IMG/VR virus record: IMGVR_UViG_3300021964_005385 | Location: 1 to 33,133 of that record | Source of the DNA: a virus | Reading direction: 5' to 3' (one strand) | Length of the DNA stretch: 33,133 nt | In this document: positions 2,313 to 19,446 of the stretch, piece by piece | Layout: each line of letters opens with the position of its first letter | How positions within the stretch are numbered: the stretch's first letter is position 1 | The notes under the pieces: model-generated | What the model saw: the letters and a program-made list of their open reading frames with translations, nothing else | Databases searched by the model: none | What the model was told of the DNA's origin: nothing | Program-made: the position numbers and the translations under genes

Positions 2313-3802
2313 TGGCTGATATTACTGTCACATATAAAGATGCTGTCAATCTTAGCGTTGAATGTGACACTGGCATCCTACAAGAATTAAATGATTTCTT
2401 CACCTTCGAAATTCCAGGAGCAAGGTTCATGCCTGCTTATCGATCTCGTATGTGGGATGGTAAAGCTAGACTTTTCAATATGTTCAACAAAGAACTTCCA
2501 GTTGGTCTTATTAAGTATCTCGAGGACTTCGCCAAACAGCTTGAATATACTATTGATAATCAGATCGAATCTCTTGGAGATATTGTCTCGTCGGAGTATG
2601 TTAAGAAGTTTGCTGAAGAACTAAATCTACACTCCAACGATAAACCAATTGAGATTCGGGATTATCAAATTCAAGCAGTCCGTAAAGGTATTCAGGGTGC
2701 TAGGTCTCTATTGTTGTCGCCCACTGCCTCTGGTAAGTCATTAATAATTTACACACTCATGCGTTATTTCCAGAAAAGAAATAAGCGTCAACTCATCATT
2801 GTTCCGACCACATCACTCGTTGAGCAGATGTATGGTGACTTCCAAGACTATGCTAGTGCTGTTGATTGGCAAGCAAGTGAAAACTGCCATCGTATCTATG
2901 GCGGCAAAGAAAAATCGAATGAATATCCAGTCACAATCTCGACATGGCAATCAATATATAAGTTTCCTAAAAAATGGTTCGAGAAGTTTGATGTGGTGTA
3001 TGGAGATGAGGCACACCTTTTCAAAGCGAAGTCCCTTTCCACAATCATGAATAAATGTCAAAACGCTCATTGGCGGTTTGGAACGACAGGAACATTAGAT
3101 GGAACAAAGACTCATCGTCTCGTATTAGAAGGTTGCTTTGGTCCAGTCACTAAGGTTATCACTACTAAGGAACTTATGGAGAAGGGTAAGGTCGCTGAAC
3201 TTGATATTACATGTTTGCTTCTCAATCACACTGATGAAGATAAACAAGCAATGAAGAAGATGAAGTATCAGGACGAGGTTGACTGGCTTGTTCGCGACCA
3301 TTGGCGAAATAACTTTATCAGTAACCTTACATTGAGATGTGAAGGTAATAGTCTCGTCTTATTTCAGTTTGTAGAAAAACACGGTAGTGTTTTATTTGAG
3401 ATGATTAAAGGGAAAGCTGGACCAAACCGTCCTGTGTATTTTGTATATGGCGGGACAGACACAGAGCAACGTGAGAATATCCGCGCTCTTACAGAGAAGG
3501 CAGATAATGCAATTATTATCGCCTCATATGGAACCTTCTCCACAGGTATAAATATAAAGAATCTTCATAACGTAGTATTCGCCTCGCCTTCCAAAAGCCG
3601 CATTAGAAATCTACAATCTATTGGTCGCGGTTTGAGGCTCGGAGATAATAAGGTCGCCTGTAATCTTTATGATATTGGTGACGATCTCTCTTGGAAGTCT
3701 CGTAAAAATTATACCCTTGAACATTTGATTGGGCGAATCAAATTATACAACGAAGAGGGGTTCAAATATAAAACTGTTAAGGTGGACAAGGATGGAAAAT
3801 AA
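2312..3802 (+). CDS. uvsW: UvsW-like DNA/RNA helicase (SF2)
   Basis: SF2 helicase that, in T4, unwinds R-loops and branched recombination intermediates and helps shut off origin-dependent replication. 496 residues, close to T4 UvsW. The N-terminal DNA-binding part contains YRSRMWDGKARLFN (about 43-56). The helicase core has Walker A SPTASGKSL (about 136-144), DEAH box YGDEAHLF (about 230-237), motif III GTTGT, and motif VI QSIGRGLR. It is translationally coupled to uvsY by TAATG. The following small gene begins inside its last codons. Confidence 0.95.
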   Translation: MADITVTYKDAVNLSVECDTGILQELNDFFTFEIPGARFMPAYRSRMWDGKARLFNMFNKELPVGLIKYLEDFAKQLEYTIDNQIESLGDIVSSEYVKKFAEELNLHSNDKPIEIRDYQIQAVRKGIQGARSLLLSPTASGKSLIIYTLMRYFQKRNKRQLIIVPTTSLVEQMYGDFQDYASAVDWQASENCHRIYGGKEKSNEYPVTISTWQSIYKFPKKWFEKFDVVYGDEAHLFKAKSLSTIMNKCQNAHWRFGTTGTLDGTKTHRLVLEGCFGPVTKVITTKELMEKGKVAELDITCLLLNHTDEDKQAMKKMKYQDEVDWLVRDHWRNNFISNLTLRCEGNSLVLFQFVEKHGSVLFEMIKGKAGPNRPVYFVYGGTDTEQRENIRALTEKADNAIIIASYGTFSTGINIKNLHNVVFASPSKSRIRNLQSIGRGLRLGDNKVACNLYDIGDDLSWKSRKNYTLEHLIGRIKLYNEEGFKYKTVKVDKDGK

Positions 3803-4193
3803 CACAAGAATAATCCGTTTCTCTGATGGGACAATGATTGTGTGTATGGTGGAAAGTTTGGACGATATTCAAAAACAAAATTTCATTAATATTTTATATC
3901 CAATTGAAATCGTTTCCAATGGTTTGGAAGAAAATGGCGGAAGTCAAATGCTAGAACAGTATATGTTGAAAGCGTGGATGGGTCTCTCGGATGATGTTAT
4001 GTTCACCCTAAATACAAGTGACATTACGACTATTGCCTTGTTGCGAGAAGAGTATATCGCTGGATATGAAAATGTAGTGAATCGTCTTTTCTTCAGATCT
4101 GACGAGTTCCAGAATCCTCCAGAAGAGGAAGAATTAACACCTGAAGACTTACTCGAATATTTACAGTTAAAAGACGAAGGTAAATTAAACTAA
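3792..4193 (+). CDS. Small conserved phage protein, possible Sm-like fold
   Basis: 133 residues from ATG 3792, which overlaps the last 11 bases of uvsW; an upstream in-frame start at 3729 would overlap far more and is disfavoured. The N-terminal pattern FSDGTMIVCMVESLDD, then a conserved segment with a MLKAWMGLSDDVMFTL strand and a central ALLREEYIAGYENVV helix, resembles the arrangement in the 25782-26093 gene and small Sm-like proteins of marine T4-like phages (a guess at the fold, not a proven match). The C-terminus is acidic (PPEEEELTPEDLLEY). Function unknown. It lies between uvsW and the late sigma factor. Confidence 0.7.
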   Translation: MENNTRIIRFSDGTMIVCMVESLDDIQKQNFINILYPIEIVSNGLEENGGSQMLEQYMLKAWMGLSDDVMFTLNTSDITTIALLREEYIAGYENVVNRLFFRSDEFQNPPEEEELTPEDLLEYLQLKDEGKLN

Positions 4194-4297: not shown

Positions 4298-4897
4298 ATG
4301 GCTAAAAGAAGAGACCCCAACAGTCGTCATTATGTCGACAACAAAGAATTCCTAGTAGCAATTAGCGAATATCGTGAGCGAGTTATCGCAGCGAAAGAAG
4401 CTGGTCAGGAAAAACCTCGCGTGACTGAATATTTGGGTGAGTGTATGGTGAAGATTGCCAACCATCTCGCATACAAATCGAACTTTGTGAACTATACATT
4501 CCGAGATGAGATGATTCTCGATGGTATTGAAAACTGCATCACATATATTGATAACTTCGATCCTGAGAAGTCTAAAAATCCTTTCGCATATTTCACACAG
4601 ATTACTTACTATGCATTTATCCGCCGCATTCAAAAAGAGAAGAAGCAGATGGATACGAAGAAAAAGTATATCGGCAGTTTAGATATGCAAGAGTTAATGT
4701 CTGCAGATGCTGATGGTCATGAAGGTAATGCTGAGTATCTCGATTATATCCGCAAGGCAGTAGATGAGGCAGCAACCTTAGAAGAAAAACATGCTGATCA
4801 GAAAGCTAATGTTAAGAAGCGTAGACCTAAATATCTAGATGACAAAGAAGCCATGGAGATGGCGAAGAAAAAGATCCCTGCCTTGAAAGGTGATTGA
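4298..4897 (+). CDS. 55: Late-transcription sigma factor gp55
   Basis: Phage sigma-70-family factor that, with gp33 and the gp45 clamp, directs host RNA polymerase to TATAAATA late promoters. 199 residues, near the T4 length of 185. The region-2-like core reads FVNYTFRDEMILDGIENCITYIDNFDPEKSKNPFAYFTQITYYAFIRRI (about 66-114), the most diagnostic part of gp55; it has no recognisable region 4. The C-terminus is Lys/Arg-rich. Four gene-proximal TATAAATA boxes in this window are its presumed targets. The gene overlaps the next by TGATG. Confidence 0.95.
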   Translation: MAKRRDPNSRHYVDNKEFLVAISEYRERVIAAKEAGQEKPRVTEYLGECMVKIANHLAYKSNFVNYTFRDEMILDGIENCITYIDNFDPEKSKNPFAYFTQITYYAFIRRIQKEKKQMDTKKKYIGSLDMQELMSADADGHEGNAEYLDYIRKAVDEAATLEEKHADQKANVKKRRPKYLDDKEAMEMAKKKIPALKGD

Positions 4898-6876
4898 TGT
4901 CTAATCGTGATATGCAGATCCTCAAACAGATTGAGGGTCATTCACAAAAAGTAAATTCGCAACCTTTAAAAAAAGAATATAGCATTCGGCGTAAATCAAA
5001 GGTTGCACTACTGACATTACCTGTGTGGGCGGCTACATTCCCACCATATAATCTTGCTCGCTTAAATGCAATGGCAAAACGAGCAGGGTATGAATCTAAA
5101 ATTTTTGATTTTAATATTGCTGCTAAACATGCATATGATGCGTTGGGTAAACCTAAAGGTGAATACAACAATTCATTATTGAGTGGTTGGTATGACGAAT
5201 CTTCACTGAAAGAACTTCTCTATCCCACAGTCGATCGACTTGTGATGGAAATGTTAGAAAATTATAATCCAGATATCGTTGGTGTCTCTTGTTATTTTTA
5301 TAACAGGTTTGCAACTCACAGATATACTGATATGATGAAGAAGCATAATCCGAATATTAAAATCATACTCGGTGGACCAAATACACTTACAGACTCTGCA
5401 AATTCTCAAAATCAATTTGATATCGATTATGTATCAGTTGGTGAAGGCGAGGAAACATTCTTACCTATACTGAATGAAATTGAAATGGGTATTGAAAATG
5501 ATGGAGTGAAAATTTTTGAATCATCAAGGCAAAGGTTGAGTCTAGATGAACTTCCAACACCAGATTACACAGATTTGGATTTGAATCTCTATGATATGCC
5601 AAATTGTATGTTGACTGAATTTTCACGTGGTTGTGTAGCTAAGTGTTCTTTCTGTTCTGAAACTCATTTCTGGAAATATCGTCAAAAAGAATCAACCACT
5701 CTTGTTGATGAATTGCAAGAATTATATGAAACCCATGGCGTCCAAATGTTTTGGTTCACGGACAGCCTCATCAATGGCGACCTTAAAAAATTAAAAGAGT
5801 TTGCCATAGAAGTAAAAGAAAGGGAACTTCCTATCTGGTGGTTTGGTTATGCTCGGCATGACAAAAGGATGACCGATGAGTATCTTCAAATCCTAAAAGA
5901 TGGTGGATTGTGGGGTATGAACTTTGGAACCGAGACTGGTGCACAGGGTGCACTGAATAAGATGAATAAGAAGGTCAATGTCCAGACCATTCACGACAAC
6001 ATGGATTCATTTGCTAGGGTTAAACTCTGGGCACAAAGTCAGATTATTTTTGGATCCCCCGAAGAACAAATCTCAGAAGTTTATAAGACATATGAGATGT
6101 TGTGGAGATCGGCTTGTAGAAATTTGAAGTCAATCGCTATTGCACCAGATTATTGGGTTATGTCATCTGCCATGGTTGGATTGAACCCTTCACAATTTTA
6201 TAAAAAGTATTCAAATTTAGCCTATGGTGGCCACTGGATCTTAGATGATTTTTCTCAGGGTGGAGATACAAATAAAGTTCGTGCTAAGATGGCAAACATC
6301 TTCATACGAGAACTGAGAAATACAGAAGGGATGATGATTGAAAATAATTCATCTATGGCTAATCCATTAGACCACTACAACTTTAAATTCTTTAAAAATC
6401 TAGACAATGAGTTTGAACAGTTTGATGACTTCGAGGATTTTCATCTCATTAAAGAGGACTTAAACCCATATGCTAAGACCATGGTAAACGAAGTCTGGTC
6501 GTTACTTAGAATACTATGGAAAATGAAGGGTGCGTTCAACATAGAAATAATGGCAGACCCGAAGATTGATGAAGGGTTTTTGGGCGACTCTTTCGGTAAG
6601 AACAAGTTATCTTATAACATAAAATTTGATATAGATGATGAAGGCTATTGGGCTATGAAGTTAAGTTTTGATTTCAAGCAAATAGACGAGCCATTTTCAT
6701 TCATCGATTTAGACCTGAATCCAAGTCACATTACTGAAGCAATCTCTATACACTCAAAGGGTCAACAGACAGAAGATGAAATAGCAGAGGTGAAGAGTCG
6801 CGCTGAGAGATATAATAAAGAGATAGATCTAAGTTTTAAATTAGATTGGGAAGGTGCTGGTCAATGGCACAAATAA
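4897..6876 (+). CDS. B12-binding-type radical SAM protein, copy 1
   Basis: Predicted radical S-adenosylmethionine enzyme of the family with an N-terminal cobalamin-binding-type Rossmann domain. 659 residues. The N-terminal domain (about 30-205) has LPVWAATFPPYNLARL, PDIVGVSCY, ILGGPNT and VGEGEETF, the usual pattern of this class; no clear DxHxxG cobalamin ligand motif is visible. The CX3CX2C cluster motif is Cys246, Cys250, Cys253 (RGCVAKCSFC). The barrel follows to about residue 430, then a long C-terminal extension of no known family. ATG 4897 overlaps the gp55 stop and has AAAGG about six bases upstream; a TTG one codon earlier is unlikely. Substrate unknown. A paralog follows immediately. 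Confidence 0.85.
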   Translation: MSNRDMQILKQIEGHSQKVNSQPLKKEYSIRRKSKVALLTLPVWAATFPPYNLARLNAMAKRAGYESKIFDFNIAAKHAYDALGKPKGEYNNSLLSGWYDESSLKELLYPTVDRLVMEMLENYNPDIVGVSCYFYNRFATHRYTDMMKKHNPNIKIILGGPNTLTDSANSQNQFDIDYVSVGEGEETFLPILNEIEMGIENDGVKIFESSRQRLSLDELPTPDYTDLDLNLYDMPNCMLTEFSRGCVAKCSFCSETHFWKYRQKESTTLVDELQELYETHGVQMFWFTDSLINGDLKKLKEFAIEVKERELPIWWFGYARHDKRMTDEYLQILKDGGLWGMNFGTETGAQGALNKMNKKVNVQTIHDNMDSFARVKLWAQSQIIFGSPEEQISEVYKTYEMLWRSACRNLKSIAIAPDYWVMSSAMVGLNPSQFYKKYSNLAYGGHWILDDFSQGGDTNKVRAKMANIFIRELRNTEGMMIENNSSMANPLDHYNFKFFKNLDNEFEQFDDFEDFHLIKEDLNPYAKTMVNEVWSLLRILWKMKGAFNIEIMADPKIDEGFLGDSFGKNKLSYNIKFDIDDEGYWAMKLSFDFKQIDEPFSFIDLDLNPSHITEAISIHSKGQQTEDEIAEVKSRAERYNKEIDLSFKLDWEGAGQWHK

Positions 6877-8897
6877 TGTCAGTTGAACGCGACCAAGCGA
6901 TGCTTGATGTCATTTCTCCCAATCGTAAGATGGTGAAACAAAAAACTTCAGACGTAGTTATCGATTATGCTACAAGAAATACTAAACTTGCGCTCGTCGT
7001 TATGCCAATGTGGTCGGTTCAATTTCCACCATACAATCTTGCTCGCCTTGCAGGGGTGACTAAAACTGCTGGATATGAAACTGATATTTTCGATTTCAAT
7101 GTAACTTCATACAATTACTCTCAATTAGAAAATGAAATAGATGATGACCTCTGGACGACTGGTAGTTGGCGTTGGCAAGATGCAGACTTTCATAATGTTA
7201 TATTACCATGGTTTGAAAGTTTTTGGGAAGACCAAGCTAAAGCCTTAATCGATTACAAACCTGATGTGATAGGATTTACTGAGTATGTGTTTAGTGAACG
7301 TGTCACCCATTGGTTTGTTGATAGGATTCGTTCGCAATTACCAGACACAAAGTTTATTGTGGGTGGTTCTAACATTCAATCCATTCAAGATGATTATTCA
7401 GGTAAAACAATCTATGATTATATTGTTTCTGGCGAAGGCGAAAATGCAATCCTAAGTGTCCTCAATAAAATCGAAGCAGGAATCGAGGAACCAAAGCCTG
7501 TTATTATAAATCAGGTTTCTGATCAGAGATTGAATATTAGTAATTTGCCTTTGCCTGATTATTGTAGTCTAGATTTCAATCAATACATTATTCCAAATGC
7601 AATATCTTCTGAGTTTTCTAGGGGCTGTGTTGCTAAGTGCACCTTTTGTTCCGAGACTCACTTTAACAAATATAGACAAAGAGAATTTACAGATGCATTC
7701 TCTGAAGTAAAATACTTCTATGAAACTAGAGGGTCACAAGTATTCTACTTCTTAGATAGTTTGGTAAACGGAAACCTAAAAGAATTGAAAGAGTTTGCCA
7801 ATCTCATTGAAGAAAATGAATTGGACGTTATGTGGCTTGGATATGCTCGTCATGACGGAAGGATGGATTTAGATTATCTAAAACAATTGGCTGCAGGTAA
7901 ATGCATTGCTATGAATTTTGGATGTGAGTCGGCAAGTCAAAAAGTCCTCGATAGTATTGATAAGAAAGTCACGGTTGAGGCAATGGAACAAAACTTTCGA
8001 GACATTAAGGAAGTTGGAATCGTAGCAATGACAAATTGGATTTCAGGATGGCCAACAGAAGAACCGAACGACCATTATCAAACAATGCAATTTTTATGGA
8101 GGCATAGAGAAAACAATTTAAATAGCATCAGCCTCGGTTATGGATTGATGCCACGCCCTGATTCAATTATGGGACAAGATTTATCTAGGTTCAATATCCT
8201 ACCACATTTATATTGCGGGCATTGGATCACTGAAGATTATAGAGTTGCTGGACCACATGTCCTAACAAGAATTAAAAACATCTATATGATGGTCGATAAA
8301 CTCATTGTTCAAAATCCTGTCTATAACCCTGCTATGAATGCAAAGGGAACTCCTGTGAGTAAGAGGGATGCACTAGAAAGTAAACATTACTCCTTGACTT
8401 TTCATGATGAATCATGTATAAAGGAGATCGAATGGGAAAATTTTGATACGAATATTATCGAAATTCCTGATAACCCTTTTGCCGAAAGCCTAATGAATGA
8501 AGTCTGGCCAATTCTTAGATTTTTCTGGAGAACTAGAGGTGGGTTCAAATTCGAGCACCGTTTCAGCCCAGAACTTGACTTTGAAGAGTTTGGGACAGGC
8601 GAGTGGATTTCGTTTGGTAATGGTGAATACAGAGCGACTTATAAGTTTGAGATCGACGCCGATGGTAATTGGGAAGCAGACTTTGATGCCTCATATAAAT
8701 CTGTTGAAGATCCTTGGAAGTTCTTTGATTTCAGTAGGCAGACTGGTCGAGTCGTTGACCGAGCAAAGAGATTGGCAAAGGCTGATGACCCCCGCTCTGA
8801 TCAGGACATGCTCGATGGTGAGCAAGAAGCACAGTTACTCAATATGACAGAGGATTTCTCCTTTGAACATACTTGGAAACAAAATGGTAAGTGGTAA
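6864..8897 (+). CDS. B12-binding-type radical SAM protein, copy 2
   Basis: Paralog of the preceding gene over its whole length, 677 residues from ATG 6864. The N-terminal domain has MPMWSVQFPPYNLARLAGVT, IVGGSNI and VSGEGENA; the CX3CX2C motif is Cys255, Cys259, Cys262 in SRGCVAKCTFC, with the shared sequence CSETHFNKYRQ after it. The C-terminal domain aligns with copy 1 around NPFAESLMNEVWPILRFFW. Start 6864 has GGGAAGG nine bases upstream and overlaps copy 1 by 13 bases. ATG 6876 (TAATG overlap) would give a start, MSVERDQ, more like copy 1 and is a real alternative. Divergence between copies suggests an old duplication and separate roles or a heterodimer. Confidence 0.85.
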   Translation: MAQIMSVERDQAMLDVISPNRKMVKQKTSDVVIDYATRNTKLALVVMPMWSVQFPPYNLARLAGVTKTAGYETDIFDFNVTSYNYSQLENEIDDDLWTTGSWRWQDADFHNVILPWFESFWEDQAKALIDYKPDVIGFTEYVFSERVTHWFVDRIRSQLPDTKFIVGGSNIQSIQDDYSGKTIYDYIVSGEGENAILSVLNKIEAGIEEPKPVIINQVSDQRLNISNLPLPDYCSLDFNQYIIPNAISSEFSRGCVAKCTFCSETHFNKYRQREFTDAFSEVKYFYETRGSQVFYFLDSLVNGNLKELKEFANLIEENELDVMWLGYARHDGRMDLDYLKQLAAGKCIAMNFGCESASQKVLDSIDKKVTVEAMEQNFRDIKEVGIVAMTNWISGWPTEEPNDHYQTMQFLWRHRENNLNSISLGYGLMPRPDSIMGQDLSRFNILPHLYCGHWITEDYRVAGPHVLTRIKNIYMMVDKLIVQNPVYNPAMNAKGTPVSKRDALESKHYSLTFHDESCIKEIEWENFDTNIIEIPDNPFAESLMNEVWPILRFFWRTRGGFKFEHRFSPELDFEEFGTGEWISFGNGEYRATYKFEIDADGNWEADFDASYKSVEDPWKFFDFSRQTGRVVDRAKRLAKADDPRSDQDMLDGEQEAQLLNMTEDFSFEHTWKQNGKW

Positions 8898-9457
8898 TGT
8901 ATAAGTTTGATTATGAAGACCCTAAAAAATATCAAGTGATGATTGACATTGAGACCCTCAGTAATCGCAGTAATGCTGCGATCTTGTCAATTGGTGCTGT
9001 AAAATTTAATATTGAGAGCGGTGTTATCGATACTTATTATCAAAATATAGATGCATCAACAGCAAAGAAATTTAATCGGCATATTGATAAAGGAACTCTT
9101 GATTGGTGGTCTAAAAAAGACCCAGCGGCATTGAAGTCTCTTATGGTTGATGTTGAGCAGTTCGATAAAGTCATTACTGATTTTATAAAGTGGTATGGTG
9201 TTTCAACACCTACGTGGGGAAATAGTGCACAATTTGACCTCGGGATTATTGAGTCAGCTTGCCATGAATTGAATCTTCCAGTTCCTTGGAAGTATTGGCA
9301 TTGTTATTGTTACAAGACAGTAACACATTTGTTTGGTGTTAATAACGCTCATATTCGTCAGGTTGAGAACGATCAAGGCGGTAAATGGCATAATGCCTTG
9401 GACGATGCTATAAGTCAAACTAACACGCTTGTTAAAATTCTCAGAGGAACACAATAA
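8897..9457 (+). CDS. dexA: DexA-like DEDD 3'-5' exonuclease
   Basis: Predicted 3'-5' DNA exonuclease of the DEDDh class, as T4 DexA. 186 residues against 227 in T4. Exo I motif MIDIETLSN (about 15-23), Exo II region PTWGNSAQFDLGIIE (about 107-121) and Exo III KWHNALDDAI with H(x4)D spacing are all present, so the active site looks complete. The TLDWWSKKDP segment matches the DexA/exonuclease VIII family. ATG 8897 overlaps the upstream stop (TAATG); a GTG two codons earlier is less likely. Function in T4 is accessory DNA turnover. Confidence 0.85.
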   Translation: MYKFDYEDPKKYQVMIDIETLSNRSNAAILSIGAVKFNIESGVIDTYYQNIDASTAKKFNRHIDKGTLDWWSKKDPAALKSLMVDVEQFDKVITDFIKWYGVSTPTWGNSAQFDLGIIESACHELNLPVPWKYWHCYCYKTVTHLFGVNNAHIRQVENDQGGKWHNALDDAISQTNTLVKILRGTQ

Positions 9458-9859: not shown

Positions 9860-10392
9860 ATATTTTTTATCTTGACGAAAATTTTGAAACAGCTGCCCAG
9901 ATGCACCTTGACAAGCATGTGGTCAAAATGATTATCGAGTATGCCCAACTTATGTCGACTGCTCACCGTATGCTTGATGGTGAAGAATATATCGATGACT
10001 CTTCTGGGCGTCGCATCAAACGCTGGCGTCATCCGAATGATAATATGGATGGTGTTCTTTACAAAGCATCACATATCAATCATCCGTCAGCTGTATGGAC
10101 ACGCGAAACATTTACCAATTATCTCTGGTTGTATTCATTATGGTTAGAACTTTGTAAGGAATACACTCATCGTTATGGTAAAAAACATTTGACTCAGGAA
10201 AAACTAGAAGATATTTTGTCAATGCCACCACATAATATTAAAGATGGTCCAATGACAAAAATGCCTCAAGCGATGCCCGACGATGTTAAGATGGAAAGTT
10301 CTATTGACGCTTATCGTAATTACTATCGCACTTACAAAATGGATATGGCTCGTTATACAAAACGTGATGTCCCTGAATTTATGGTTGCTTAA
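9856..10392 (+). CDS. Conserved T4-like phage protein, 178 aa
   Basis: Resembles a conserved but unnamed protein of marine T4-like phages, with the N-terminal signature MNIFYLDENFETAAQMHLDK followed by HVVKMIIEYAQLMSTAHR, HPSAVWTRETFTNYLWLYSLWLELCKEY in the middle, and MPQAMPDDVK plus AYRNYYRTYK near the end. It is rich in His, Trp and Tyr, and the several conserved histidines could bind metal or nucleic acid, but no catalytic family can be assigned. ATG 9856 follows a clear Shine-Dalgarno and its own promoter. The stop overlaps the next start (TAATG). Confidence 0.75.
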   Translation: MNIFYLDENFETAAQMHLDKHVVKMIIEYAQLMSTAHRMLDGEEYIDDSSGRRIKRWRHPNDNMDGVLYKASHINHPSAVWTRETFTNYLWLYSLWLELCKEYTHRYGKKHLTQEKLEDILSMPPHNIKDGPMTKMPQAMPDDVKMESSIDAYRNYYRTYKMDMARYTKRDVPEFMVA

Positions 10393-10844
10393 TGAAAATT
10401 TTGATAATGGGACTTCCAGGATCTGGTAAGACTACTCTTGCCAGTGAATTAGCATTTAATTTTCGTGTTCCATATCATAATGCAGATGTTGTTCGAGAAT
10501 ATACTGACAATTGGGATTTTAGTCGCGGTGGAAGAATAAAGCAAGCATTGTATATGCGCGATCAGTGGGGTATTTTAGATTTTATTGCTCCAACTAAACA
10601 AATAAGAAGTATCTGTGACCCACACTTTGTGATATGGATGGACACCATCAAAGAAGGTAGATTCGAAGATACAAATAAACTTTTTGAAAGACCAAAGCGT
10701 GACGAATATGATGTTAGGATTACAAAATGGATTGGACTAAACCAACTACGCTCCTCCTTGGAAGATACCAGCCATGGCATCGAGGGCATACAGAACTATT
10801 TAAAAAAGCCCTTCAAAAAACTGGTCAAGTCCTCATCACAGTGA
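10392..10844 (+). CDS. P-loop kinase, adenylylsulfate-kinase-like
   Basis: Small nucleotide-dependent kinase of the APS kinase/P-loop class. Walker A GLPGSGKTT is at residues 7-15, followed by NADVVREYTDNWDFSRGGRIKQA and VIWMDTIKEGRFEDTNKLF, matching APS-kinase-like proteins of marine T4-like phages. Conserved kinase sequence ends near residue 112 (YDVRITK); the last 38 residues lie antiparallel in content to no family and are simply the other frame of the nucleotidylyltransferase that starts at 10727. From memory, homologs in other phages join both domains in one chain, so this looks like a split fusion. Actual phosphate acceptor unknown. Confidence 0.75.
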   Translation: MKILIMGLPGSGKTTLASELAFNFRVPYHNADVVREYTDNWDFSRGGRIKQALYMRDQWGILDFIAPTKQIRSICDPHFVIWMDTIKEGRFEDTNKLFERPKRDEYDVRITKWIGLNQLRSSLEDTSHGIEGIQNYLKKPFKKLVKSSSQ

Positions 10845-17006: not shown

Positions 17007-18134
17007 ATGTCTAAATTGAATCGTCAAAAATTGTTGGATGCCTTGGCTGGTGAAAGTCAAGCCATCTTCAGTCGTCCTGAGATTGCAAGTCTCGCCGAGC
17101 GTATCGGTGTTTCGTATCCGCATTGGTTTTTCCGTGAGCACAAAGTTGGTCACAATAAATACTCAGTTGAAGCTGCTGGTCTGAAGGTTGTTGCCTCCAA
17201 TCCTACACCCACTCCTGTCGAGGATGCTAAGATCGTGACACAAGCTAAGTTAGCTGTCGAAGTTGATAATCTTGTCCCTGTAGTCGATGCGACATATGTC
17301 GCGTTTGGCTTCCACCGAGATCTTATCAAGATCGTGAAGTCTGGTATTTTCTATCCGACTTTCATCTCTGGTCTGTCAGGTAATGGTAAGACCACGATGG
17401 TTGAGCAGGTTTGTGCTAAACTGAAGCGTGAAGCTATCCGTGTCAATATCTCTGTAGAGACTGACGAAGATGATTTGATTGGTGGTAACACACTGGTCGA
17501 TGGCAATGTCGTTTATCGCGAAGGTCCAGTTCTCACTGCTATGAAGCGTGGTGCTGTCCTGATTCTCGACGAGTTGGATCGTGGCTCTAATAAGCTGATG
17601 TGCCTTCAAGCGATTCTCGAAGGTAAGCCATACTTCAATAAGAAGACTGGTGAGGTGATCACACCTGCTGCTGGCTTTAATGTAATCGCGACTGCTAACA
17701 CTAAAGGTCGTGGCTCGGATGATGGTAAATTCATCTCTGCCCAGATCCTTGACGAGGCATTCCTCGAGCGTTTCGCCGTGACTGTTGAACAGCAGTATCC
17801 AACCGAGTCTCAAGAGTTAAAGATCGTTCTCGGTAAGATGAACAAAGTTGGTAAAGTCGATGAAGATTTTGCTGAGAAACTTGTCCGCTGGGCAGATGTT
17901 ATTCGTAAGACTTTCAACGAAGGTGCGATCGAAGACCTTGTTTCTACTCGTCGGATCGAGCATATCGTAAATGCGTATGCTATGTTTGAAGATCGGTTGA
18001 AAGCAATCGAGTTGTGCGTTAATCGCTTTGATGAAGATACCCGTCAGGCATTCCTCGACCTATATACTAAGGTTGACGCTGGTGTGTCTCTTAATGAAGA
18101 AGAAACTACTGAAGGTGAACAAGTTGACATCTAA
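17007..18134 (+). CDS. cobS: CobS-like MoxR-family AAA+ ATPase
   Basis: 375 residues. Walker A GLSGNGKTT near 121-129, Walker B LILDELDR near 184-191, sensor-1 ATANT near 228-232, and the LEERF-like AFLERF arginine-finger region. The sequence ISVETDEDDLIGGNTLVDG and the stretch KPYFNKKTGEVITPAAGFNVIATANT are characteristic of the CobS/MoxR subgroup carried by cyanophages. In bacteria CobS is the ATPase of aerobic cobaltochelatase, but MoxR relatives act more broadly as chaperones with VWA partners, and the partner here lies directly upstream. The N-terminal 60 residues may form a separate small domain. The acidic tail overlaps the next gene. Confidence 0.85.
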   Translation: MSKLNRQKLLDALAGESQAIFSRPEIASLAERIGVSYPHWFFREHKVGHNKYSVEAAGLKVVASNPTPTPVEDAKIVTQAKLAVEVDNLVPVVDATYVAFGFHRDLIKIVKSGIFYPTFISGLSGNGKTTMVEQVCAKLKREAIRVNISVETDEDDLIGGNTLVDGNVVYREGPVLTAMKRGAVLILDELDRGSNKLMCLQAILEGKPYFNKKTGEVITPAAGFNVIATANTKGRGSDDGKFISAQILDEAFLERFAVTVEQQYPTESQELKIVLGKMNKVGKVDEDFAEKLVRWADVIRKTFNEGAIEDLVSTRRIEHIVNAYAMFEDRLKAIELCVNRFDEDTRQAFLDLYTKVDAGVSLNEEETTEGEQVDI

Positions 18135-18405: not shown

Positions 18406-18689
18406 AATACACAAAGAAAATAGATGGCTGCAAGGCACTTGGACCACCAGCCACCCCGACAGTCGATCGTTTGAGCCATGCGGTTCATGAGCATGAAGAA
18501 GTATTTGTTGAAGTTTTGAAATGGCATAAAGATCGAGCGACCATCTTTATTGATCAGGCTCGCTGGTGTCATGACGACCCTGAAAATTATCCTTCCGATG
18601 CTGTTTGGAAAGAACATACGATACATTTATCATATTCACAGATGAAAGAAATTATTGAGTTTATTGATGAAATCGGTTTCGAAGAATAA
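18402..18689 (+). CDS. Hypothetical protein, 95 aa
   Basis: Not recognised. The start overlaps the DUF3310-like stop. The sequence is rich in His, Trp and acidic residues (HAVHEHEEVFVEVLKWHKDR; ARWCHDDPENYPSDAVWKEH), with no membrane segment. The 3' end overlaps the glycosyltransferase start by 23 bases. The coupling supports expression. Confidence 0.6.
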   Translation: MKYTKKIDGCKALGPPATPTVDRLSHAVHEHEEVFVEVLKWHKDRATIFIDQARWCHDDPENYPSDAVWKEHTIHLSYSQMKEIIEFIDEIGFEE

Positions 18690-19446
18690 TATCCTATTCG
18701 CTGTTTTAACCAGCGATAAGCCAGAGAAGTTAAAGCGGTGTCTGCGATCCGTGAACTCTAACTCCTCTCCTCAAGAGCGGATTGTCGTTATTAATACAAC
18801 AGACAACGACTTTGCCTCTCTGGCTCAAACTATTTCAACCGAGTATGAATTTCCTGTCCACATCAGTGAATCTAATGGCACTCCAGGGCGCGGTAAAAAC
18901 TCTGTGTTAGATTATTTTCAAAAAACTGAACACGACTATCTTGTTCTTATTGATGGTGATGACTATCTAACACCTGATGCCAGAGAAGAAATTGACCAAC
19001 TTATAGGGACGCATGAGTTTGACGTCTTAGCATTAGGTGAAACTAATGTCTTAATCCCAGAAGGTGAAATCACAACATCTGAATGGTTGCAATCTAGACA
19101 TTTTTTACGACAGATATGGAAGTCAGTTCCTCGCAATGAACTAGCTGATATTATGAAGTTATTTGATTACTTAAAAGCCTTTACAGTTGGTGGTGTTCCA
19201 ATGAATAGACCATTTATGTTCTCAAAGAAAGGTGCTACGATAAGATTTGATGAAGAGTTGCTCGCAGCCGAAGATTCATTACATAATGCTGTTTGTAGAA
19301 AGCGCGAAGAACTCGAATATGTTGTAGCTGAAAATATGCCGATCTATGTTTATGATAATACAGAGTTAGGACAATTTCATAACGCCCTTCGTTTGGGGGC
19401 AAAAGATTTTTGCGATAAACTTTATGGAAAATTTGATGATCTTTAG
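18667..19446 (+). CDS. GT-A fold glycosyltransferase, family 2-like
   Basis: 259 residues from ATG 18667; a TTG four codons upstream is less likely. The N-terminal nucleotide-sugar region ILFAVLTSDKPEKLKRCLRSV, the NGTPGRGKNSVLDYF segment, and the metal-binding LIDGDDYLTPDA (about 97-108, the DxD motif) are typical of family 2 transferases. The C-terminal half has an acidic pair in LLAAEDSLHNAV that fits the usual catalytic position. Target unknown: phage DNA, virion protein or host surface are possible. It begins the AT-rich accessory patch before gp45. Confidence 0.75.
   Translation: MKSVSKNNILFAVLTSDKPEKLKRCLRSVNSNSSPQERIVVINTTDNDFASLAQTISTEYEFPVHISESNGTPGRGKNSVLDYFQKTEHDYLVLIDGDDYLTPDAREEIDQLIGTHEFDVLALGETNVLIPEGEITTSEWLQSRHFLRQIWKSVPRNELADIMKLFDYLKAFTVGGVPMNRPFMFSKKGATIRFDEELLAAEDSLHNAVCRKREELEYVVAENMPIYVYDNTELGQFHNALRLGAKDFCDKLYGKFDDL

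Follow-up and report, generated by a model that had tools for sequence, protein, structure and literature searches.

Tandem B12-binding-type radical SAM paralogues at a cargo site of a T4-like phage belong to an unnamed phage family with a possible role in sugar or glycan tailoring

Results

Two radical SAM genes fill the space between gp55 and dexA

Two genes predicted to encode radical SAM enzymes lie in tandem between the genes of the late sigma factor gp55 (4298..4897, + strand; phrog_234, E = 6e-59) and of a dexA-type exonuclease (8897..9457, + strand; phrog_255, 2.6e-43), which form the upstream and the downstream border of a cargo site in the window, that is, the whole 33,133-nt stretch of viral DNA analyzed here (IMG/VR record IMGVR_UViG_3300021964_005385). 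The first gene, R1 (4897..6876, + strand), codes for a divergent paralogue of 659 aa, and the second one, R2 (6876..8897, + strand), for a canonical family member of 673 aa. Together they fill the gp55–dexA space exactly, as the stop and start codons overlap at all three junctions, TGA and ATG at position 4897 (TGATG), TAA and ATG at positions 6876 and 8897 (TAATG in both cases). These overlaps fix and refine the start positions of R1 and R2. The central observation of a preliminary description of this DNA, tandem paralogous B12-binding-type radical SAM reading frames between gp55 and dexA, is confirmed by Pfam, BLASTP and the two PHROG matches of the flanks.

Both proteins start with a B12-binding-type Rossmann domain, continue with a radical SAM core containing the CxxxCxxC motif, and end in a common C-terminal domain. 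The B12-binding domain (PF02310) scores 48.0 and 36.5 bits in the two proteins versus the Pfam gathering cut-off of 32.1, and the Radical_SAM domain (PF04055), 43.7 and 49.0 bits versus 29.5; judged by these two domains, R1 and R2 are members of the B12-binding-domain class of the radical SAM superfamily. The [4Fe-4S] motif is C246-x3-C250-x2-C253 in R1 (5632..5655, + strand) and C251-x3-C255-x2-C258 in R2 (7626..7649, + strand), with the invariant cysteines of R1 aligned to those of R2. The proteins are 34% identical over the full length, including the C-terminal part (BLASTP, E = 5e-129), and chance is excluded. The C-terminal domains themselves (6154..6873 in R1; residues 425–673, 8148..8894, in R2; both on the + strand) are homologous, with 26% identity in alignment A6.

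Predicted fold and the C-terminal domain

In the AlphaFold2 model of full-length R2 (pLDDT 81) the Rossmann domain is followed by the radical SAM barrel and the C-terminal domain. The top PDB matches of this model in Foldseek are AprD4, TsrM, OxsB, MgmA, MiaB, CysS and TokK, and as the score gaps between AprD4, TsrM and the others are small, these matches support the class and not the substrate. In the viral structure library the same model retrieved general radical SAM matches only. The C-terminal domain of R2, modeled with pLDDT 90.4 and pTM 0.87, has no match in PDB at E ≤ 0.001 when taken alone (Foldseek, best E 0.3), and its profile search produced one insignificant sequence match only. 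The preliminary description had been unable to place this domain, and both the profile and the fold searches bear this out.

Extent of the family

Scanning of viral contigs in IMG/VR with a five-member alignment yielded 241 confirmed stretches with family members, the best 80 of them being 42–97% identical to R2; relatives of R2 in viral contigs were also found at 42–58% identity. The core set of proteins aligning over the full length comprises 88 members, and loss of the cluster residues is not observed among them, the cysteines being present in 88/88; a more distant group, with about 20–25% identity, has the core in common with the family. We define the family by the presence of the C-terminal domain of profile A6 after the barrel, which both R1 and R2 have; among twelve tested contigs the profile matches six, exactly those bearing the family. 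The viral scan with R1 as a single-protein query gave zero matches, so apart from the window only the truncated ends of two related contigs, L001 and L002, are known to carry R1. Among 50,697 phage records we found no full-length relatives (over 80% of R1 or R2), the matches covering the general core only, with 22–25% identity, and in the one bacterial genome scanned there was a single weak match, also to the general core.

None of the named NCBIfam equivalogs (BchE, rSAM_ocin_1, rSAM_ladder_B12, AprD4, KedN5, MgmA, and others) scores above its curated cut-off. The best score of R1 is 119.7 bits versus the cut-off of 360, with the ladderane model first and BchE second, and the best score of R2 is 88.2 bits versus 481, with BchE. 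In PHROGs, R1 and R2 have only fragmentary matches, none of them full-length. Assignment to a well-known, named radical SAM family was therefore dropped, and, as far as sequence comparison goes, the R1/R2 family is an unnamed, widespread and phage-borne one. The earlier suggestion of an undescribed system thus holds for the family, which has no named model, but not for the general phenomenon, as T4-like marine phages rich in radical SAM genes have been reported already (PMC5332604, PMC7029224).

The gp55–dexA site as a cargo slot

We surveyed 23 contigs, including the window, in which gp55 shares 85% or more identity with its counterpart in the window. Here gp55 is directly followed by dexA in 19 contigs, a single family gene is inserted in three (L005, L006, L014), and two family genes are present in the window only. 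Both copies are also found in L001 and L002, but these contigs begin inside R1; two cyanophage isolates inspected have neither copy. Since gp55 and dexA overlap or abut already in relatives without the insert, the insertion has been precise. The pair had initially been regarded as coupled to the late sigma factor; the overlap is, however, the usual one of a compact operon, and as relatives without the insert show overlaps of the same type, functional coupling to gp55 was dropped as evidence. We read the gp55–dexA site as a slot for cargo that implies no functional tie to late transcription.

In relatives more distant than the surveyed ones the site holds other open reading frames. Such frames occupy the same slot in L181–L194 (about 291, 162, and 223 aa), and one of about 530 aa lies between dexA and gp47 in L167 and L175–L178; as these slots are filled by other genes in related T4-like phages, the gp55–dexA–gp47 stretch is a hotspot for cargo.

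The R1–R2 block of the window is 95–98% identical to that of L001 at the DNA level, with dS of 0.06 and 0.22, versus 79–82% identity and dS of 1.4–1.9 for dexA, gp47 and gp46, and the similarity drops from 93–97% to about 72–86% at the R2/dexA border. As the block is far closer to L001 than its flanks are, the tandem must have been exchanged between phages in one piece, and recently.

Two small genes were noted in the vicinity. One, between uvsW and gp55 (3729–4193, + strand), matches phrog_471 “methylamine utilization” and has a weak Sm-like match; its identity among relatives, 24–64%, makes it far more variable than its neighbors. The other, a kinase-like gene at 10392–10844 (+ strand), has a counterpart with 50% identity close to the family gene of L015/L016 and none in L001/L002.

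Divergence of R1

In the phylogenetic tree R1, R2 and the copies from L005 and L006 constitute one clade (support 95/95), and hence the tree places the duplication within the T4-like clade. Independent acquisition of R1 from outside this clade is not favored, given this grouping. The exact place of R1 inside the clade is unsure, as long branches were flagged by the tree program, the branch length being 2.03 for R1 versus 0.45 for R2.

The two copies have diverged unequally. At 121 columns conserved in at least 95% of other family members, R1 departs from the family residue at 28 positions and R2 at 10. The losses of R1 are concentrated in the region 301–420 of the barrel, with 13 of 34 conserved columns affected versus 5 of 45 in the region 171–300 (p = 0.006), and in the C-terminal domain, with 7 of 22 affected. 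The three cluster cysteines, the equivalent of E351, and the G-x-P-x-E motif are all kept. The pattern would fit altered substrate handling with the radical chemistry retained. Both copies had been considered probably active: the retained cluster residues agree with that, but because of the 28 lost positions, compared to 10 in R2, equal activity of the two proteins may not be assumed.

R2 is under purifying selection (dN/dS 0.08 versus L001), while the value for R1, 0.215, comes from 78 codons only, with few changes. Interpretation of R1 as a pseudogene is not favored, given 659 open codons and the conservation of the cluster residues.

Gene context in other phages

Outside the T4-like phages we analyzed 84 loci, and the family gene is single in all of them (84/84). 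The preliminary description had considered a heterodimer; as these 84 loci and three T4-like relatives are single-copy, it is unlikely that the family as such depends on an obligate heterodimer, and the idea was dropped as a family trait.

Further radical SAM genes occur within about 10 kb in 74 of the 84 loci (median 3), and sugar-type genes, in 66 (relatives of UDP-glucose dehydrogenase, of NAD epimerase, of DegT aminotransferase, of carbamoyltransferase, or of sugar C-methyltransferase). Sugar enzymes are the commonest recognizable neighbors other than radical SAM proteins, while the commonest additional radical SAM proteins of these islands are those with the twitch domain, NF033640 (371 bits vs. 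170). NF033640 is above the cut-off in each of the 38 tested contigs that carry the family and measure at least 50 kb, among them L008, L012 and L129, in which the family gene lacks radical SAM neighbors. The association is not exclusive, since twitch-domain genes are also carried by three of the seven T4-like gp55 contigs of this size class that lack the family gene; the comparison uses a small control set and loci ranked by similarity to R2, and the record of the window itself spans 33 kb only. Extreme expansions were seen in two single viral contigs, G013 (L013) and G016 (L090), with 17 and 21 NF033640-family matches, respectively.

The islands contain several other proteins of interest. 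A long protein with FDFSWHPD..PPYIYVFG repeats (L147:18595-22035 and relatives, cluster c3, up to 1671 aa) is recurrent in radical SAM islands and matches neither Pfam nor PHROG models. The same locus encodes a 594-aa protein without a Pfam match (L147:13728-15509), whose first half, by eye, is Asp/Asn beta-hydroxylase-like, and the second half resembles a glycosyltransferase-like neighbor, and two small proteins, SGNH-hydrolase-like by eye (L147:15509-16258, matching DUF6071, and L147:7916-8683), each recurring in roughly half of the loci with the family gene.

In the window itself the sole recognized sugar gene encodes a GT2-type glycosyltransferase (18655–19446, + strand; PF00535, 28.1 bits vs. 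23.3); it lies about 10 kb from R1/R2, after a CobS-like AAA gene at 17007–18134.

Combinations of this kind have been observed in marine phages before. A T4-like environmental genome carries 12 radical SAM genes together with iron-sulfur assembly genes (Nishimura et al., PMC5332604), in pelagimyophages the host recognition cluster includes radical SAM cassettes next to tail fiber and glycosyltransferase genes, and LPS-type genes such as UDP-glucose 6-dehydrogenase are present as well (PMC7029224), and in Tasman Sea viromes radical SAM, RmlD and glycosyltransferase genes are enriched (PMC7150976). These three studies give no function for the phage radical SAM genes.

Discussion

Because relatives of R1 and R2 sit in sugar-modifying gene islands, the two proteins probably build an unusual sugar or glycan. 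Specifically, we see slightly less than an even chance that they perform a cobalamin-type radical SAM tailoring step on a phage sugar or glycan, with R1 as a neofunctionalized copy. A fuller evolutionary account is more tentative: a phage-specific family with a new C-terminal fold may tailor a phage-made glycan, and in one marine T4-like lineage it may have entered the gp55–dexA slot, duplicated there and gained a second activity. Of the possible targets, a sugar or glycan, covered earlier only by the mention of a host metabolite, fits the context best, while a modified base and a ribosomal protein find no support here.

The reaction might proceed as follows. The [4Fe-4S] cluster would cleave SAM, producing the 5′-deoxyadenosyl radical, which would abstract a hydrogen atom from a carbon of the substrate, a nucleotide-sugar or glycan bound between the barrel and the C-terminal domain. 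Cobalamin bound by the N-terminal domain would then most likely donate a methyl group, C-methylation taking somewhat more than half of the weight that we give to the sugar reading; alternatively, as in AprD4, the radical itself could bring about a redox reaction or a dehydration. A known cobalamin-dependent radical SAM enzyme is GenK. The product would be a modified sugar on the virion or the host envelope, and its synthesis would likely involve twitch-domain radical SAM proteins and sugar-nucleotide enzymes whose genes lie in other parts of the phage genome. R2 would keep the family reaction, while R1, with the cluster and SAM chemistry kept and the second half of the barrel rebuilt, would probably act at another position or on another sugar. 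What the data establish is the class, the family, the duplication, the mobility and the selection acting on R2; we infer that cobalamin is used, that a methyl group is transferred, that the substrate is a sugar, and what R1 does.

Radical SAM chemistry on sugars exists, since the radical SAM enzyme GenK is described as catalyzing C-methylation at C-6′ of a gentamicin sugar (PMC4039129). Against a sugar substrate, no sugar-nucleotide gene adjoins R1/R2 in the window, and, the record being a 33-kb fragment, the island is assumed and not seen in this phage; the neighborhood of sugar genes is not proof of a common pathway. Against C-methylation, the named methyltransferase models of NCBIfam are all below the cut-off, and proteins of the AprD4 and MiaB types share the fold but are not known to use cobalamin as a methyl donor.

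Among other explanations, the best surviving, if unlikely, one is modification of proteins or peptides, that is, C-methylation or crosslinking of residues in virion or host proteins with the help of twitch-domain partners, like in RiPP maturases and MgmA. It agrees with the occurrence of the RiPP C-methyltransferases rSAM_ocin_1 and ApyD among the best NCBIfam matches, with MgmA as a structural neighbor, and with the long repetitive proteins in the islands (L147:18595-22035) and He_PIG-type proteins in five loci. Still, the RiPP-type matches are far below the curated cut-offs and reflect the common core, the most common recognizable non-radical-SAM neighbors are sugar enzymes, and neither a precursor peptide gene nor a RiPP recognition element was noticed in the loci, although no dedicated search was made.

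Somewhat less probable again, and compatible with any substrate, is that R1 serves as a non-catalytic or regulatory partner of R2 in an obligate heterodimer restricted to the phage type of the window. The tandem is translationally coupled and was co-transferred as one cassette, and many conserved residues are lost in R1; but R1 retains the cluster cysteines, the E351 equivalent and the G-x-P-x-E motif, and single copies are the rule among relatives, so that R2-type proteins need no partner.

It seems improbable that the enzymes are radical methyl- or methylthiotransferases acting on nucleic acids, be it tRNA, rRNA, or the DNA of the phage. DNA modification is frequent in T4-like phages, and MiaB and RimO are among the fold matches, but the latter cover the Rossmann and barrel parts common to all relatives, MiaB-type NCBIfam scores are very weak, no nucleic-acid-binding domain was found, and the island neighbors are sugar enzymes, not nucleotide-hypermodification genes. 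Equally doubtful is that the genes are auxiliary metabolic ones that help the host during infection with cofactors, tetrapyrroles or lipids (in the manner of BchE, HpnJ or ladderane enzymes), since the BchE and ladderane models, although best for R2 and R1, respectively, with BchE second for R1, all match far below the cut-off (R2 to BchE, 88 bits vs. 481), the C-terminal domain is the family's own, and no genes of tetrapyrrole or lipid pathways were recognized around the family gene.

Many marine and freshwater phages spend tens of kilobases on radical SAM enzymes. The R1/R2 family offers a tractable entry to them, with a single-gene form in T4-like phages and a C-terminal domain having no solved relative, and the natural duplicate pair may help to tell substrate recognition apart from radical chemistry. 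If the sugar or glycan reading is true, phages would build unusual surface sugars with oxygen-sensitive radical chemistry and host B12.

Comparison with known systems

The closest described proteins are the cobalamin-binding (class B) radical SAM enzymes TsrM (6wte), OxsB (5ul4), TokK (7kdx), CysS (9n1b) and MgmA (9ccb), the best profile and fold matches of the phage enzymes, in which the B12-binding Rossmann domain is also followed by the CxxxCxxC barrel. The identity to them is 12–17% over the aligned parts, and the C-terminal domain of the phage enzymes is different and has no relative in PDB. AprD4 (6fd2), the radical SAM 1,2-diol dehydratase of apramycin biosynthesis, is the top Foldseek match to R2 (E = 6e-11), with the same combination of Rossmann domain and barrel and a carbohydrate-type substrate, an aminoglycoside in the structure. 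However, it is only 14% identical to R2, with TM of 0.40 normalized to R2 and a score barely above those of other matches, and its length, about 450 residues, leaves no room for the phage-type C-terminal domain.

NF033640 (N_Twi_rSAM) proteins co-occur with the family, often within the same island, but they have an N-terminal twitch/SPASM-like domain and no B12-binding domain, and hence would be partners rather than members of the same family. Finally, the phages described previously (PMC5332604, PMC7029224) are similarly T4-like and marine and carry several radical SAM genes as cassettes, whereas in the case considered here a single gene has entered the core region of replication and transcription genes and has been duplicated.
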